A stretch of DNA of 64,000 nucleotides from Campylobacter sp. RM12651 (GCF_022369475.1 NZ_CP059600.1:1426001-1490000); one strand, 5' to 3'. Positions 48,282 through 58,234 are shown, numbered from the stretch's first letter. Translations and numbers: made by a program. The notes: generated from the letters alone by a model not told the origin.

Positions 48282-48358
48282 TGGTGGGCCTAACAAGACT
48301 TGAACTTGTGACCTCACCCTTATCAGGGGTGCACTCTAACCAGCTGAGCTATAGGCCC
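48282..48358 (-). tRNA. tRNA-Ile (anticodon GAU)
   Basis: 77 nt including an encoded CCA. The acceptor GGGCCTA pairs with TAGGCCC; the D-arm has AGCTCAGCTGGTTAGAG, the anticodon loop CTGATAA, the T-arm GTTCAAGTC. It follows 16S by 122 nt as the usual spacer tRNA. tRNA-Ala, the other common spacer tRNA, is absent. Confidence 0.97.
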
Positions 48359-48393
48359 TTAAGAAGTAGAATTATTGTTATCTTATTTCATTT

Positions 48394-48415
48394 CAACCTT
48401 TGATATCCAAACAAG
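48394..48415 (-). other. 3' arm of the 16S precursor processing stem
   Basis: 22 nt complementary to 50095-50116 with two G-U pairs, lying between the 16S 3' end and tRNA-Ile. The two arms enclose 16S and should form the RNase III cut site. Confidence 0.8.
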
Positions 48416-48480
48416 CTCTCAAGAGCTCTTGAAATATTTATTATTACTCTTTAGTGTGAGTTAAAGAGTATGTACTCTAG

Positions 48481-49989
<1,509 letters not shown>

Positions 49990-50251: not shown

Positions 50252-51037
50252 TTAGGGATTAAAATTTTTTTTATGTGCTAATTTACCTTGATTTTTGATA
50301 AGTAAAACCTCACTTAAAATACTAAACGCAATTTCTCTTGGCTCCTGATTTGCAATGTCTAAACCTATTGGAGCATAAATTTTATTAAATAATTCGGTAC
50401 TAAAATTATCTTTAATCAGCTCATCTTTAATGAATTTATGTTTAGTTTTACTTCCAATAACACCAACATATTTTGCATTTTTATCTATTACATTTTTTAA
50501 GCATTTATAATCATCTAAATGAGATTTTGTAACAATAATTACATAAGTATTATCATCAATATCTAAAAAACTCAAATCTTCATAATTGCTGAAATATTCT
50601 TCATTTGCTAAACCTTGCAAATAATCTTGCCTATCATCAATTAAAATGGAATAAAAACCTAAATATTTTGATAAAAATAATATTTCTTTACCAATATGTC
50701 CTGCTCCACATATTATTAATTTTGCTTTTTGATTAATAATTTTTATATAACCACTTGCAAGCCCGCCGCACTGCATTTTTAAATCTCCATTCGGTGTTAA
50801 TTCGTGATTAAAAATTTTACTTTTATTATTTTCTAAACATTCTTTAGCTTCTTTTAAAACTTCAAATTCTAATTTACCACCACCTATACTTCCAATGCTT
50901 GTGCCATCGCTAAATAAAGCCATCATAGAACCTGCATTTCTAGGAGTGCTGCCACTTGATTTGGTAAGAGTTATTAATGCAATTTTTTCATTTTTCTCAC
51001 ATCTTTTATATATTTCTTTTATTATCAATTCATCCAT
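50252..51037 (-). CDS. XdhC/CoxI-family molybdenum hydroxylase maturation protein
   Basis: 261 residues. N-terminal ALITLTKSSGSTPRNAGSMMAL and GSIGGGKLEFEV with the conserved GGG region, middle CGGLASGY, C-terminal Rossmann domain LIICGAGHIGKEI and IGSKTKHKF, IGLDIANQEPREIA. XdhC proteins bind sulphurated molybdenum cofactor and hand it to xanthine dehydrogenase. The ATG at 51037 follows AGGAA; the frame extends to an unlikely TTG. Overlaps the preceding gene by 8 nt. Last gene of the operon. Confidence 0.92.
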   Translation of the reverse strand: MDELIIKEIYKRCEKNEKIALITLTKSSGSTPRNAGSMMALFSDGTSIGSIGGGKLEFEVLKEAKECLENNKSKIFNHELTPNGDLKMQCGGLASGYIKIINQKAKLIICGAGHIGKEILFLSKYLGFYSILIDDRQDYLQGLANEEYFSNYEDLSFLDIDDNTYVIIVTKSHLDDYKCLKNVIDKNAKYVGVIGSKTKHKFIKDELIKDNFSTELFNKIYAPIGLDIANQEPREIAFSILSEVLLIKNQGKLAHKKNFNP

Positions 51038-51827
51038 TTTTATTCCTATTTTCAAAATACATCAAAGCTTCAAGAACCCCACCACCTATGCTCCTAGCCT
51101 TATCTGAAATACTAAAGCAATTTTCATATTCACTAATTCTTGGGTCAATATCTGCAATTTTAAGACCCTTTACTACTTCAAAATTATCATTAATAATACC
51201 TCTTAAAAGCCCACTTATACTAGCTTTAACAGGTGTATTATCAATATATGCAATAATTTCTTCTTCTTTTACAATATCACCTATTTTAGCAATAGCTTTA
51301 AAGATTCCATTATCGTTTGCATAGATTACTCTTTTTGCTCCAATTCCTTTTACTTCAGCAGGAATTCCTGTATTTTCTTCAGTAAAACCACTTAAAATAA
51401 CCTTGCCTAAATTATGGCCGCGATTACTCTCGATTACAGCGTGAGCGTCAATTCCAGCACAAAACCCAGGTCCAATAGCAATCACAACAGGAGCCATATT
51501 AATATTTGTTCCTAAATTCCTTTTAGCTAAAATTGAATCAATTAAAGCCCTTGGTTTTATATAATTTAAAATATCTAAATTCTCATCAATTATAATAGGA
51601 ATAAAATCTTTACAATCTAAAATCTCATCTTTATTAACTAACTTCGCTTTTATACCTTCTATTTCACAAGTTTTATCGTAAACTGCTTGAGAAAAACAAA
51701 CTTTTGTTCTAATTGAACTTGGTTTTAAACATTCTAATAAAAGTATCTTAAAACCTGCTCTAAAAAGCCTAGCAGCAATACCACTAGCAATATCACCCGC
51801 TCCTCTAATAATTACAAATTCACTCAT
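51030..51827 (-). CDS. yqeB: Selenium-dependent molybdenum hydroxylase maturation protein YqeB
   Basis: 265 residues from ATG 51827 (AAGG at 7 nt). Pattern VIIRGAGDIASGIAARLFRAGFKILLLE, VCFSQAVYDK, VVIAIGPGFCAGIDAHAVIESNRGHNLG, and GGGVLEAL fits the EF2563/YqeB family, which marks selenium-dependent molybdenum hydroxylases. Its exact reaction is unproven; it is thought to help add the labile selenium to the cofactor. Confidence 0.93.
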   Translation of the reverse strand: MSEFVIIRGAGDIASGIAARLFRAGFKILLLECLKPSSIRTKVCFSQAVYDKTCEIEGIKAKLVNKDEILDCKDFIPIIIDENLDILNYIKPRALIDSILAKRNLGTNINMAPVVIAIGPGFCAGIDAHAVIESNRGHNLGKVILSGFTEENTGIPAEVKGIGAKRVIYANDNGIFKAIAKIGDIVKEEEIIAYIDNTPVKASISGLLRGIINDNFEVVKGLKIADIDPRISEYENCFSISDKARSIGGGVLEALMYFENRNKNG

Positions 51828-52383
51828 CAATCAACCTTAAATCTTCTTTAGTATCTATATCTTTTCCTTCTAATTCATCATATAAATCAACAAAAATTAC
51901 TTTATCTTTATATTTTTGAATTAGCACTCTTCCACCGCTATCATTATCTAATTCGCACAATTCTTTAAAATATTTTTTATCAAAAATAGTAGGCAAGGAA
52001 TTAATATTATTAAATCTAGGAACAACAATATAATTTTCTTTATATTTTGAAATGATAGTTTTTATTGAATTAGTTTTTAAAAATATTTGATCAATCGGTA
52101 AAAATATTGCGTAATCATAATCTAAAACATTATTTAAAGCTATTTTTATACTTGTATTTTGACCCTTATTAAAGGCATTTAAAACCACATTAAAATCTTT
52201 ATAATTTGTCTTTAAATACTCGTAATTGTTCTCATTAGCAACTATTTTAATATCCATATTAAGCTCTAAAGTTTTTTGAATAATCAAATCAATAAAATAA
52301 GTATTTTTATATTTTAAAAATGATTTATTTAAACCAAGCCTTCTTGAATATCCAGCTGCTAAGATAATACAAATTCCTTTCAA
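51820..52383 (-). CDS. mocA: MocA-like molybdenum cofactor nucleotidyltransferase
   Basis: 187 residues. Begins CIILAAGYSRRLGLNKSFLKY, the nucleotidyltransferase signature LAAGxSxRxGxxK; FLPIDQIFL is the metal-binding PxDQ-like block, and GKDIDTKEDL the C-terminal motif. Family members add CMP to the pterin (MCD cofactor). The start is TTG, overlapping the yqeC stop as TTGA; no ATG exists before the conserved motif. Overlaps yqeB by 8 nt. Confidence 0.87.
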   Translation of the reverse strand: MKGICIILAAGYSRRLGLNKSFLKYKNTYFIDLIIQKTLELNMDIKIVANENNYEYLKTNYKDFNVVLNAFNKGQNTSIKIALNNVLDYDYAIFLPIDQIFLKTNSIKTIISKYKENYIVVPRFNNINSLPTIFDKKYFKELCELDNDSGGRVLIQKYKDKVIFVDLYDELEGKDIDTKEDLRLIDE

Positions 52384-53054
52384 AAATTAAGCCTTATATA
52401 TTTTTCTTCTTTTAAAAAACCAGCTAATAATCTAAAATTTTTTAATCTTTTTGCAAGTTCATTTAATACTTTTAAATCATCGCATCTATTAAAAAAAATA
52501 AAATTATCAGAATTTAAACTAATATTTTCAAACATTTTTAAACAAATTTTTTCTATTAAATCAATACTTAAAACATCACTTTTACTCACTTCAAATACTT
52601 TCAAAAAATCATCAAACCTATGAATGAAATTCTCATTTAATTGATAATTTAATAAATGAAGTGGAATAATTCCTATTATTTTATTGGTATTTTCTAAAAT
52701 AACAGGCTCATTATTTTTCCAAACTTTATAAGGCAATTCCTTAGCTCCATCAGCTTCATATATAAACAAATCACAATTTTTATAAAAATCACTAAAATCA
52801 TCTAAAGCATTTACTTTATTGTCAATAATTTTTCCACATAAATTAACGCCTTTTTTAAGATTTGTAATACTTGTTTGATTATATAGATTATTAAAATTTA
52901 TATCTTTTACTTCATACATTTTTGTACTTGTTGTAAGAATTGTGATTTTATCTTGATTTTGTTTAGCTAGATTATAAGCAAAAGTAGTCTTCCCACCAGA
53001 GCCTATAATCGCAATTTTGTCTTTATATTTAATATCTAAAGCTTCATTTAGCAT
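52380..53054 (-). CDS. yqeC: Selenium-dependent molybdenum hydroxylase maturation protein YqeC
   Basis: 224 residues. P-loop IAIIGSGGKTTFAYNLA near residue 20, TTSTKMY, YEADGAKELPYKVWKNNEPVI and FFNRCD are the YqeC pattern. With YqeB it defines the selenium-cofactor hydroxylase system. Starts inside the last codons of the iron-sulphur subunit (11-nt overlap). Confidence 0.92.
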   Translation of the reverse strand: MLNEALDIKYKDKIAIIGSGGKTTFAYNLAKQNQDKITILTTSTKMYEVKDINFNNLYNQTSITNLKKGVNLCGKIIDNKVNALDDFSDFYKNCDLFIYEADGAKELPYKVWKNNEPVILENTNKIIGIIPLHLLNYQLNENFIHRFDDFLKVFEVSKSDVLSIDLIEKICLKMFENISLNSDNFIFFNRCDDLKVLNELAKRLKNFRLLAGFLKEEKYIRLNF

Positions 53055-53505
53055 TATTTGCAGTATCTTCTATGGCTTGAAAGATTTTTTTATATCCTGT
53101 GCAACGACATAGATTACCAGACACACCTCGCCTTATTTCAAACTTAGTAGGCATTTTATTTTTACTAAGCAAAGCAGTTGATGAAATAATAAACCCAGGA
53201 GTGCAAAATCCACACTGAACAGCACCATTTTTTACAAAATTTTCTTGTAAAAGACTTAAGCCATCAAAAGGGGTTAAACCTTCTATAGTAGTTATTTTTT
53301 TACCATCAGCCCAAGCTGCTAAATAAATACAGCTATTTACATTTTTACCATCAACTAAAACAGCACAAGCTCCACATTCACCAACACTACAGCCTTCTTT
53401 AGTTCCACTTAGTTGCAATACATTTCTTATTAATTCAAGCAATGACATTCTAGGGTCAATGTGTAATTCATAAAATTTATCATTTATATAAGTTTTAATT
53501 TTCAT
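53044..53505 (-). CDS. xdhC: Xanthine dehydrogenase-type 2Fe-2S subunit
   Basis: 153 residues. Plant-type [2Fe-2S] cluster CSVGECGACAVLVDG...C and the second cluster CGFCTPG...CRCTGY. Passes electrons from the Mo centre to FAD. Named as in E. coli, where xdhC is the Fe-S subunit; not to be confused with the XdhC maturation protein at 50252-51037. Confidence 0.95.
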   Translation of the reverse strand: MKIKTYINDKFYELHIDPRMSLLELIRNVLQLSGTKEGCSVGECGACAVLVDGKNVNSCIYLAAWADGKKITTIEGLTPFDGLSLLQENFVKNGAVQCGFCTPGFIISSTALLSKNKMPTKFEIRRGVSGNLCRCTGYKKIFQAIEDTANNAK

Positions 53506-54370
53506 AATTTTTTCCTATTAATTCATAAATAGCTCTTTTTGTAAGCGTTGTTAAAAGATTATTTCTAAAATCTTTAGAAGCTCTCCAAGAATCTCTTGCC
53601 TTTGTTTCATTTAAAATATTATTAGCAATTTTTTCAATATTATCTTTAGTTAATTTTAAACCTTTTGCTAATTTTTCACTTTCTTTAGCTCTAATAGGAG
53701 TAGGAGCAGCAACTCCATAAGCTAATTTTAAATCAATTATCTCATCATTATTAGTTTTTAACATAACACTAACTCCAATTGTAGCTATATCCATAGCATT
53801 TCTTTGAGCAAATTTTATATATTTACTAACATAACCATTAAAAGATTTTTTAGGAATTTTAATACTTGTTAAAATATCTCCTTTTTCTAATTTAACAACA
53901 CCAGAACTAATATAAAAATCATTTATAGCAATTTCTTTGCGTGTGTCTTCGTTGTAAATAACTAAAATCGCATCAAGAGTAAAAAGACTTGAAGCACTAT
54001 CAGCAGAAGTTGCACCATTGCAAATATTTCCACCTATTGTAGCCATATTTCTAATTTGCGGGCCACCAACTAGAGCAGCTGCTTGTTTGAGATTTGTTAA
54101 ATTATTTTTTATAATTTCATTATTTTCTATATCATCAAAAGTGCATAATGCACCTATATGAATAAACTCATCATCAATTGTTATAGTTTTTAATTCTTTT
54201 AAAGTATTAATTCCTATTAAATGCTTATTTGCGTATTTTTTATCCAAACTTCTAAGTTTAATTAAAATATCAGTTCCGCCTGCAATTAATACCGAATCAT
54301 CTATAGTTTTTAATAACCTACTAGCTTCATTAACGCTTTTTGCTTCCGTGTAATTACTTAAATAATACAT
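53495..54370 (-). CDS. xdhB: Xanthine dehydrogenase-type FAD subunit
   Basis: 291 residues. FAD-binding AGGTDILIKLR, then GGPQIRNMATIGGNICNGATSADSASSLFTLDA, and FAQRNAMDIATIGVSV. CO-dehydrogenase flavoprotein fold. Overlaps both neighbours by 11-13 nt. Confidence 0.95.
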   Translation of the reverse strand: MYYLSNYTEAKSVNEASRLLKTIDDSVLIAGGTDILIKLRSLDKKYANKHLIGINTLKELKTITIDDEFIHIGALCTFDDIENNEIIKNNLTNLKQAAALVGGPQIRNMATIGGNICNGATSADSASSLFTLDAILVIYNEDTRKEIAINDFYISSGVVKLEKGDILTSIKIPKKSFNGYVSKYIKFAQRNAMDIATIGVSVMLKTNNDEIIDLKLAYGVAAPTPIRAKESEKLAKGLKLTKDNIEKIANNILNETKARDSWRASKDFRNNLLTTLTKRAIYELIGKNYEN

Positions 54371-56655
54371 TCTTTATCCTTAGCTTGAAAAAATCTTTCT
54401 GGTGTTATTGGAATTTGATTAAACTCTATATTTGTAGCATCAAGCACTGCATTTCTAATAGCAGGTGCAGGAGAACACATAGGAGGTTCACCTAAAGACT
54501 TATTACCAAATGGACCATAAGGGTCATAATTATCAACAAAACTAACATCTAAATCAGGAACATCAAGTGCAGTTGGAACTTTATAATCTAAAAGATTATT
54601 GTTTAAAATCTTACCTGTTTTTTTGTCATATTTTAATTCTTCTAATAAAGCATAAGGAATTGCCATTCCCATTCCGCCTTCTACTTGAGAACTTGCTAAA
54701 AGTGGATTTAATACCTTACCAGCATCATGAACATTTAAAATATCTAATATCTCTATTTTTCCTGTATTCATATCAACTTCAACCATAGCCATAGTAATAC
54801 CATAACTATAAGAATTTGTATGGCAATTTACACTTGCAAATGCCGATAAACTTTTAGCCTTTTGCCAATCATAAGTAGTGTGTAAAGCAAAATCAGCCAA
54901 ACTCATTAAAACTTCTTTATTCTTAAAAACAATATTTGCATTTTCTAAATCAAGATTTGCAAAATCAACATCTTTTAATCTCGCTGCTGTTTTTAATATT
55001 TTTGTTTTTAATTTTAAAGCAGCTTCTTTTACTGCAAGCCCTGTTACATAGCTTTGTCTTGAAGCATAAGCTCCTGTATCAAATGGAGCCGTATCTGTAT
55101 CAGTATTCGCATCAACTATAACCCAATCATAAGGAATACTTAAAACTTCTGCTGCCATTTGAGCTAAAACCGTATCAGAACCTTGTCCGATTTCAGTTGA
55201 ACCTAGCATTAGTTTAATATGTGCATCTTGATTTAGTATTACTCTAGCTGCTGCTGTTTCTAAGCCCTTTGGATAAACACCTGTTGTATAAGTAAAGGTT
55301 GCAAGCCCTACCCCACGCTTTTTATAAGAGTGTTTAAATTCTTTACAGGCTTTTTGTTTTTCATAGTAATTAAATTTATCTTTAGCAACCTTAATACATT
55401 CTTTTAATTTAGCTGATTTTTGAATAACTTGATTTAGTGGATTTAAAACATCATTTCCTACTATATTTTTTTCTCTAAAACTAATAGAATCAAAACCCAT
55501 TTTTCTAGCTACATTTTCCATAAAACTTTCTATAAAAAACATAACCTGTGGAACTCCATATCCTCTCATAGCCCCAGCTGTTGCTATATTTGTATGAACG
55601 GTTTTAATGTCATATCTAAAGTTAGGAATATTATATAAAGATAATAAAACTCCACCACCTTTAATACCAACCGAATGAGTATGAGATGCGTAAGCTCCTT
55701 TATTTGATAATACTTCTATATCTAAAGCATTTATAAAGCCATCTTTACTAATACCCATTTTTGCTTTATATTCCATTTCGTGTCTTGTTCTTGTATATGC
55801 GATACTTTCTTCTCTATCAAGTGCAATTTGAACAATTTCTCCACCCATAGCCATAGATAAAGCAACGCAAAGTGGCTCTATTGTTACTTCTTGTTTATTA
55901 CCAAAACCACCACCAACAAAAGGTTTTATGACTCTAAAATAACTCCAATGTTTTTCAAAAACTTCGCCTAAAATTCTTCTTAAAATATGTGGAATTTGAG
56001 TTGAACTTACTACCACATAACGATTATCTTGGTCTTTATAAGCATAAGCAATCTGATTTTCCATATGGCAATGTTGTTGTAAAGGAACTTTAAATGTATC
56101 ACTAAAAACATAATCGCTATTAGCTAAAGCCGATTCTACATCTCCAACTTTACTAATAGTATGAGCCATTATATTGCTATCTAAATCCTCATGAATTTTC
56201 GCAGCCCCTTCTTGCATTGCTTCTTGTGGGGTTAGATAAAAAGGAAGCTCATCATATTCAACCTTTACCTTACTTACAGCAATTTTTGCAGCTAAATCAG
56301 TGGTTGCAATAATAGCTGCTATTTCATCTCCAAATAATCTAACATGCTCTGTTAAAATGGTTCTATCATACCTATCTCTAGTCTTTGGGTCTAGTCCAAA
56401 TGGATGACCTGCGGTTGCAAACTTAGTTTTTGGCATATCTTTATAAGTTAAAATTTTAATAACCCCATCAACCTTTAAAGCTTCGCTAAAATCAAAACTT
56501 TTAACATATCCATGTGCTATGCTAGATCTTACTATTCTTGCATAAAACTTTTTCTTAGTAGGAATATCAGCAGTATAAATTGCTTTACCTGTAACTTTAG
56601 CGTAAGCATCCCATCTTGTTTCACTTTTACCTATCGTTTTAAATTCTTCTTTCAT
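54358..56655 (-). CDS. xdhA: Xanthine dehydrogenase-type molybdenum subunit
   Basis: 765 residues from ATG 56655 (AGGG spacing 6; a GTG lies two codons upstream). Motifs: TGKAIYTADI, GGGFGNKQEVTIEP, GAMRGYGVPQ (Mo-site region), LGSTEIGQGSDTVLAQMAAE, DTGAYASRQSYVTG and the near-terminal SLGEPPMCSPAPAIRNA with the catalytic Glu. Hydroxylates a purine or related N-heterocycle; the xanthine permease upstream points to xanthine/hypoxanthine. Together with YqeB/YqeC it should carry a selenium ligand. Confidence 0.94.
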   Translation of the reverse strand: MKEEFKTIGKSETRWDAYAKVTGKAIYTADIPTKKKFYARIVRSSIAHGYVKSFDFSEALKVDGVIKILTYKDMPKTKFATAGHPFGLDPKTRDRYDRTILTEHVRLFGDEIAAIIATTDLAAKIAVSKVKVEYDELPFYLTPQEAMQEGAAKIHEDLDSNIMAHTISKVGDVESALANSDYVFSDTFKVPLQQHCHMENQIAYAYKDQDNRYVVVSSTQIPHILRRILGEVFEKHWSYFRVIKPFVGGGFGNKQEVTIEPLCVALSMAMGGEIVQIALDREESIAYTRTRHEMEYKAKMGISKDGFINALDIEVLSNKGAYASHTHSVGIKGGGVLLSLYNIPNFRYDIKTVHTNIATAGAMRGYGVPQVMFFIESFMENVARKMGFDSISFREKNIVGNDVLNPLNQVIQKSAKLKECIKVAKDKFNYYEKQKACKEFKHSYKKRGVGLATFTYTTGVYPKGLETAAARVILNQDAHIKLMLGSTEIGQGSDTVLAQMAAEVLSIPYDWVIVDANTDTDTAPFDTGAYASRQSYVTGLAVKEAALKLKTKILKTAARLKDVDFANLDLENANIVFKNKEVLMSLADFALHTTYDWQKAKSLSAFASVNCHTNSYSYGITMAMVEVDMNTGKIEILDILNVHDAGKVLNPLLASSQVEGGMGMAIPYALLEELKYDKKTGKILNNNLLDYKVPTALDVPDLDVSFVDNYDPYGPFGNKSLGEPPMCSPAPAIRNAVLDATNIEFNQIPITPERFFQAKDKECII

Positions 56656-56663
56656 ACTCACCC

Positions 56664-57998
56664 TTATTTATCTTTTGCAAAAAATAAAGAAGCTATCATA
56701 GAAATTACACAAACTCCTACTATGCTATCTTTAAAAACCCAACTTATATAACCTGGCAAATTACTAGTAATTTCAGGATGGACTCCAAACCCATACCCAA
56801 GACCAAAAGTAATACCTAATATCATTACATTTTTGTTGCTAAATCCAGCATAAGCTACAATCTTAATACCATTTATCAAAATCATAGCAAAAATCATAAT
56901 AACTGCACCCCCTAAAACACTATCTGGAATAGTCCTAAAAACAGCTCCTAATTTAGGAATAAAAGCTGATACTATAATAAAAAAAGCACCTAAAGCTATG
57001 CAATATTTATTTATAATTTTTGTCATTGCTATTATTCCTGCATTTTGACCATAAGCTGTATTAGGTAAAGCATTTAACAAACTAGCCACCATACAACCAA
57101 CACCATCTGCTAAAATAGCTCCACTGATTTCTTTTTCTTTAGCACACCTATTAAAAGCTGCTACGGTAATTCCATTAACATTTCCAATAGTTTCTAAACT
57201 TGTGATTATATAAACGATAATGGCACTTACAATAGGGGCTAGTTCAAAATGAAATTCATTAATTAAAATAATTGGAATAGGCAAGCTAAACCAACTTGCT
57301 TCACTAATAATACTAGTATCTACTCTACCTACCATATAAGCTAAAAAATATCCCACAACAAGACCTATTAAAATAGCTGAAACTTTAAAGATACCCTTTG
57401 CAAATCGTTGAATAGCAATAATGATTGCAAAAGTGCTAAAAGATAAACATAAATTAATAATATCCCCATAAGTTCCCATTTTTTTAGCAGCTAAACCACC
57501 CGCACAATAATTAACACCCACATCTAATAAATTAATGCCGATTGCAATTAATACAACACCTATTACTAATTCAGATAAAATCTTTGTGATATATTTGTAA
57601 GCAAAACCAATAAATATAGTGATTATACTGCCTATAAGAGAAGAAGCTAAAATTGCACTAAAACCATAAGTATTTGCAACACTTATAGCTGTTGGCACAA
57701 AAGCAAATGTAGTCCCCATAACTATTGGAAGATTAGCACCTATTTGGATATTTTTATATTTGATTGGATAAAGTTGCAGAAGAGTTACTATGCCAGAAGC
57801 TAGCATAGCTGATTGGATTAAACTGATACTTTCTTGCGTGGATATTACAATACTCGTACTATTTAAGACCCCTATAATTATCAAAATGGGGGCTAAATTT
57901 CCTGTAAACATAGCAAGAACATGCTGCATTCCCAAAGGAAGTGCTACAAAAAACGGGGGTTTTCCTTCTAGTTGGTAAATTAAATTCTTATTTTTCAT
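56664..57998 (-). CDS. NCS2-family purine (xanthine/uric acid) permease
   Basis: 444 residues, 14 helices. PLGMQHVLAMFTGNLAPILI, QIGANLPIVMGTTFAFVPTA, and TYGQNAGIIAMTKI are hallmarks of the nucleobase-cation symporter 2 family, xanthine branch. First gene of the operon, 8 nt before xdhA. GTG at 58001 and ATG at 57998 are adjacent; ATG chosen. Confidence 0.92.
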   Translation of the reverse strand: MKNKNLIYQLEGKPPFFVALPLGMQHVLAMFTGNLAPILIIIGVLNSTSIVISTQESISLIQSAMLASGIVTLLQLYPIKYKNIQIGANLPIVMGTTFAFVPTAISVANTYGFSAILASSLIGSIITIFIGFAYKYITKILSELVIGVVLIAIGINLLDVGVNYCAGGLAAKKMGTYGDIINLCLSFSTFAIIIAIQRFAKGIFKVSAILIGLVVGYFLAYMVGRVDTSIISEASWFSLPIPIILINEFHFELAPIVSAIIVYIITSLETIGNVNGITVAAFNRCAKEKEISGAILADGVGCMVASLLNALPNTAYGQNAGIIAMTKIINKYCIALGAFFIIVSAFIPKLGAVFRTIPDSVLGGAVIMIFAMILINGIKIVAYAGFSNKNVMILGITFGLGYGFGVHPEITSNLPGYISWVFKDSIVGVCVISMIASLFFAKDK

Positions 57999-58234
57999 CA
58001 CACACTTTCATTTTAGATAAAAGTGATTATATAAAATCTTACTTAAAATCATCTTGATATTTATTGATAATGCTAAAACATAAGTAGAATTAAATTCCTA
58101 AGTTAAATAATAAAAATATATTTATACTAAAAAAATAATCATCATAAAATCTCATATATAAATATTAATTTATAACAAGGCTAAAATAAATCATATTAAA
58201 ATATAAAACCGAAAAATTAATTCCGATTTTATAT

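Follow-up and report, generated by a model that had tools for sequence, protein, structure and literature searches.

A self-contained xanthine dehydrogenase operon, probably of the selenium-cofactor type, in Campylobacter sp. RM12651

Organisation of the operon

The window, a 64,000-nucleotide stretch of DNA from Campylobacter sp. RM12651 that was analysed as a whole, contains an operon of eight intact genes that runs on the minus strand from position 58001 to 50252. All eight are full-length open frames, in the order NCS2 permease, xdhA, xdhB, xdhC, yqeC, mocA, yqeB and XdhC/CoxI-type chaperone. The features, with the model scores on which their assignment is based, are as follows.

56664..58001, minus strand: NCS2 nucleobase permease of the xanthine/urate type, operon gene 1 (PF00860 and TIGR00801 above cut-off)
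54358..56661, minus strand: xdhA, molybdopterin-binding catalytic subunit, 767 aa (NF043082, 1077 bits against a cut-off of 780)
53495..54370, minus strand: xdhB, FAD subunit, 291 aa (NF043083, 371 bits against a cut-off of 310; PF00941, PF03450)
53044..53505, minus strand: xdhC, subunit with two [2Fe-2S] clusters, 153 aa (NF043084, 214.3 bits against a cut-off of 217)
52380..53054, minus strand: yqeC, selenium-cofactor marker, 224 aa (TIGR03172, 117 bits against 73; PF19842, 105 against 27.6)
51820..52383, minus strand: mocA, molybdenum cofactor cytidylyltransferase, 187 aa (PF12804 above cut-off)
51030..51827, minus strand: yqeB, selenium-dependent molybdenum-cofactor maturation protein, 265 aa (TIGR03309, 336 bits against 220)
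50252..51037, minus strand: XdhC/CoxI-type maturation chaperone, 261 aa (PF02625 and PF13478 above cut-off)
48481..49989, minus strand: 16S rRNA gene, a neighbour outside the operon (RF00177, 1553 bits)

The first-pass annotation had described a run of eight overlapping genes, and all of them are present at these coordinates, in exactly that order and in matching families. It had also placed the DNA in a Campylobacter-like genome, which is likely, as a small-plasmid Rep gene matches Campylobacter plasmids, if distantly. Successive genes are spaced by +2, -13, -11, -11, -4, -8 and -8 bp, computed with ATG starts for YqeB and the chaperone that match those in a related genome, G345. Three assignments are best matches that fall below their curated cut-offs. 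The permease is closest to the PbuX subfamily and exceeds the cut-off of the NCS2 superfamily model only; MocA matches TIGR03310 best (124 bits, cut-off 186); and XdhC lies 2.7 bits short of NF043084, with PF01799 and PF00111 above cut-off and all eight cluster cysteines present in its translation.

Upstream of the operon lies a branched-chain-type ABC transporter gene set. The 16S rRNA gene begins 262 bp downstream, and the operon of G345 has an equivalent neighbour. Positions 48282–49989 of the window hold this 16S rRNA gene and a tRNA-Ile, without a 23S gene at the expected place, and the same arrangement is found beside the G345 operon; two of the four 16S copies in the genome have no adjoining 23S gene, while the other two are followed by one. 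The G+C content of the operon (28.9%) is close to that of the window without its rRNA (29.0%), so base composition gives no sign of a recent foreign origin. A promoter scan returned sites no more numerous than in shuffled sequence.

The operon encodes an XdhABC-type enzyme, the only molybdenum hydroxylase found in the genome

XdhA and XdhB both meet the curated cut-offs for the XdhABC type. Against TIGR03311, the model for the selenium-dependent xanthine dehydrogenase of the EF2570 type, XdhA scores 307 bits, far below the cut-off of 830, and the subunits of the enzyme are separate and not part of an FeS–Mo fusion. Judged by these family models, the operon hydroxylase is an XdhABC-type enzyme and not one of the EF2570 type. 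XdhA carries the motifs QHCHME (Glu201), TRTRH (Arg293), GAMRGYG, TEIGQG and SLGEPP (Glu725), which are common to XdhA of E. coli and Clostridium; in two Clostridium proteins SLGEPP is replaced by SIGEN or SMGEN, with the glutamate kept. From their positions in these motifs, we take Glu201, Arg293 and Glu725 to be the counterparts of Glu802, Arg880 and Glu1261 of bovine xanthine oxidoreductase.

XdhA is the sole molybdenum hydroxylase match in the genome at E values up to 1e-20, which leaves XdhABC as the only client of YqeB and YqeC. This absence of a second predicted client is the strongest argument that the two proteins serve XdhABC. Compared with G345, all eight operon genes, yqeB and yqeC included, have dN/dS values of 0.06–0.18 (Nei–Gojobori), which indicates that the whole gene set is under purifying selection.

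Selenium-cofactor marker proteins and selenium supply

Both YqeB and YqeC exceed their curated cut-offs, and their genes share the operon with the hydroxylase genes xdhABC and with the maturation genes mocA and the XdhC-type chaperone. The first-pass annotation had treated YqeB and YqeC as markers of selenium-dependent hydroxylases. This is borne out in that SelD, YqeB and YqeC form the accepted marker set and all three are present. Its statement that the markers are mostly known from Clostridia and some enterics was too narrow, however, as YqeB also occurs in Enterococcus, Collinsella and haloarchaea. YqeB of RM12651 is 46–52% identical to Clostridia-type proteins and 51% identical to that of E. 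coli.

The selD gene that had been predicted elsewhere in the genome, and whose absence the first-pass annotation had named as a refutation, was found as one clear gene (TIGR00476, 264 bits against 125; G000:C1:1934811-1935728). Its product is itself a selenoprotein, as the frame has a TGA codon for selenocysteine within the motif HAGUGAK. The genome also encodes SelB, a tRNA-Sec (anticodon TCA) and the selenouridine synthase MnmH; with this set, selenophosphate should be available to the cell. SelB, tRNA-Sec and MnmH are all present in G397 too, a relative that lacks the operon. Since SelD is needed for selenocysteine and selenouridine in any case, its presence does not discriminate in favour of a selenium-dependent enzyme.

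YqeC contains a P-loop (GSGGKT) and an N(K/R)xD motif, both conserved with Clostridia, which suggests an NTPase or a nucleotide-driven step. In a profile search of the PDB it gave weak P-loop matches (FtsY, E about 0.02), and the corresponding search with YqeB gave no meaningful match. Structures predicted from eight-sequence alignments reached a mean pLDDT of 69 for YqeB and 38 for YqeC, the latter model being useless. The YqeB model had no significant match in the PDB, with weak Rossmann-like matches only, and we therefore draw no mechanism from it. Cys238 of YqeB was considered as a conserved selenium carrier and ruled out, as E. coli and Collinsella have another residue at this position. 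A Clostridium species encodes YqeB fused to an XdhC-type chaperone in one open frame of 614 residues (L036 9998-11839), which suggests that the two proteins work together. In a Negativibacillus metagenome genome, the stretch that encodes YqeB (L044 1945-2730) has a stop codon on translation.

Distribution of the operon and its counterpart in a sister species

YqeB was found above cut-off in 3 of the 153 species searched, all three within one genus of four species; we apply the family label Campylobacteraceae to the searched species on the strength of the Campylobacter-type plasmid Rep gene. The same three YqeB-positive species, and no others, came out of a sample of 397 genomes of the class. 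XdhA of the XdhABC type exceeded its cut-off in exactly these three species, and the weaker XdhA matches in other families of the class occur without YqeB above cut-off. G345 has all eight genes in identical order, with 86–96% protein identity, and G222 has all eight in a somewhat rearranged order. By SelB identity, the fourth species, G397, falls outside the others (57–60%, against 71–87% among the other three).

Between RM12651 and G222, XdhA, XdhC and the permease are 69–73% identical, a divergence similar to that of SelB. The identity is lower (49–59%) for XdhB and the accessory proteins. As the first three proteins have diverged like SelB, the simplest reading is that the common ancestor of the three species already had them. 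In the XdhA tree these species form one clade (100/100), and they cluster with the E. coli protein and two Clostridium proteins (support 100/99). The tree is small and gives no branching order among the Campylobacter, Clostridium and E. coli lineages, and hence no donor lineage.

In G222 the homologous operon genes are surrounded by a near-complete cluster for reductive urate degradation (G222:C1, about 96.6–125 kb). It comprises YgeY, YgeW, carbamate kinase, a RidA-like protein, YgeX, a hydantoinase (HyuA), SsnA and extra nucleobase permeases, together with the C-terminal part of a YgfK-type reductase, whose frame is partial. A second hydroxylase of G222, an FeS–Mo fusion of 879 residues that is encoded in the same cluster, is the sister of the E. 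faecalis selenium-dependent xanthine dehydrogenase in the tree (100/100). The reductive urate pathway has been worked out in E. coli, and the phyla given for SsnA do not include Campylobacterota (PMC12507026).

Is XdhABC selenium-dependent?

The gene content, gene order and protein families of the operon, its co-occurrence with SelD, its single hydroxylase and the purifying selection on it are all observed. They are best explained by a self-contained xanthine dehydrogenase operon of the selenium-cofactor type, a reading to which we assign a probability of about 0.68. For XdhABC, we infer a selenium ligand, the substrate, the electron acceptor and the direction of the reaction. The permease would import purines, and XdhABC would use a molybdenum-cytosine-dinucleotide centre to hydroxylate hypoxanthine and xanthine to urate, with electrons passing through two [2Fe-2S] clusters and FAD, and then probably to NAD+. 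MocA is predicted to make the cytidylylated (cytosine dinucleotide) cofactor, and the XdhC-type chaperone to insert it. YqeB, with the help of YqeC, would exchange the terminal sulfur on molybdenum for selenium from the selenophosphate made by SelD.

To our knowledge, no sequence feature separates selenium-loaded from sulfur-loaded enzymes. We regard the selenium dependence of XdhABC as probable. The main doubt comes from E. coli, which has xdhABC, yqeB, yqeC and selD, yet likely makes no selenium hydroxylases (PMC11448449). Because the E. coli protein is one of the closest relatives of RM12651 XdhA among those compared, gene co-occurrence alone cannot settle the question. XdhABC might be a sulfur-dependent enzyme of purine salvage as in E. 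coli, with YqeB and YqeC acting as general cofactor helpers and no selenium in the enzyme. The kinship with the E. coli protein and the XdhA score far below the TIGR03311 cut-off both agree with this, and we consider it unlikely but the most serious objection. It is at odds with the report of YqeB solely from selD-positive genomes (PMC2276186) and with the finding that yqeB is as important as selD in C. difficile, where normal growth on xanthine and urate needs both genes (PMC11448449), even though a yqeC deletion had no phenotype there (PMC11448449). The sulfur-dependent alternative also sits poorly with yqeB and yqeC lying inside the operon of the sole hydroxylase, under purifying selection. 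That the genes are non-functional, left over from a larger cluster for urate degradation, is very improbable: G222 does have the whole cluster around the homologous genes, and RM12651 lost or never had the remainder, but all eight frames are intact, all are under purifying selection (the dN/dS range above) and gene order is kept in G345.

The operon resembles the described selenium-cofactor trait in that SelD, YqeB, YqeC and MocA-type and XdhC-type genes accompany a molybdenum hydroxylase (PMC2276186, PMC11448449). It differs from C. difficile, where yqeB and yqeC lie apart and hydroxylases are encoded at five loci (PMC11448449); RM12651 has these genes in a compact operon with a single hydroxylase. 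With E. coli XdhABC (NF043082/NF007426) the enzyme shares its three subunits, 44% identity in XdhA and the active-site motifs. In E. coli, however, about 10 kb separate xdhABC from yqeB within a long region for urate degradation, whereas in RM12651 the maturation genes are in the xdhABC operon and the urate genes are missing. The selenium-dependent enzyme of E. faecalis (EF2570 type, TIGR03311) belongs to the same enzyme superfamily and has the same kind of accessory genes, but is an FeS–Mo fusion with no separate FAD subunit at its locus.

The operon represents a system of known kind in a new lineage. Its genes are intact and under selection, and within its family it is rare. It extends the trait and, through G222, the anaerobic urate pathway to Campylobacteraceae. 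Our full-text literature search found no report of either in this family, and we make no claim of priority. Of all selenium pathways, the delivery of labile selenium to molybdenum hydroxylases is the one least understood; yqeB is needed for it and yqeC is puzzling. The genetic model organism, C. difficile, encodes several hydroxylases, with the genes scattered; RM12651 has a single hydroxylase, whose accessory genes all lie in the same operon, and makes the question of selenium delivery directly testable.

Purine use and the direction of the reaction

The E. coli urate cluster XdhD-YgfK-SsnA-HyuA-YgeW-YgeY-YgeX (PMC12507026) has a counterpart in G222. In the RM12651 genome SsnA, YgeX and YgeW were not found, and YgeY had no match above cut-off. 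With these four missing, converting xanthine to urate would yield electrons but no nitrogen, and the opposite reaction would supply salvage. The first-pass annotation had put forward growth on xanthine as nitrogen source as a check; such growth would probably fail in RM12651. As urate is not degraded by the known anaerobic pathway in this genome, we propose that the enzyme serves redox metabolism, purine salvage or both, and not the supply of nitrogen. A second nucleobase permease gene lies directly before that of a purine-type phosphoribosyltransferase of 146 residues (L106 92-1893), and the two are likely to form a salvage pair.

More specifically, RM12651 may have a minimal natural selenium-cofactor system of one hydroxylase, one chaperone, YqeB, YqeC and one permease, in which XdhABC charged with selenium turns xanthine into urate and back, serving electron flow or the salvage of urate and leaving the ring intact. 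We advance this tentatively. If true, interconversion of xanthine and urate without ring breakdown would be a use of the trait that is absent from the literature examined. The enzyme could also work in the opposite direction with either ligand, so that external urate is reduced to xanthine and either enters salvage in this form or acts as an electron sink. This is doubtful. Urate reduction by clostridial xanthine dehydrogenase is reversible, and urate can be returned to salvage by E. coli XdhABC (PMC12507026); both the missing urate genes and the phosphoribosyltransferase next to a permease are in keeping with it. On the other hand, urate reduction requires a strong donor, and the permease is assigned above cut-off only at the level of the NCS2 superfamily.

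A hydantoinase at G000:C1:772902 was considered as a urate-pathway gene and ruled out, as the best matches of this gene and its neighbour are to ErtD/ErtE of ergothioneine use. Two adjacent amidohydrolase genes at about 772.7–775.3 kb of G000:C1 match ErtD and ErtE best, below the cut-offs (517/600 and 410/520 bits), and are adjoined by an MFS-type transporter gene.
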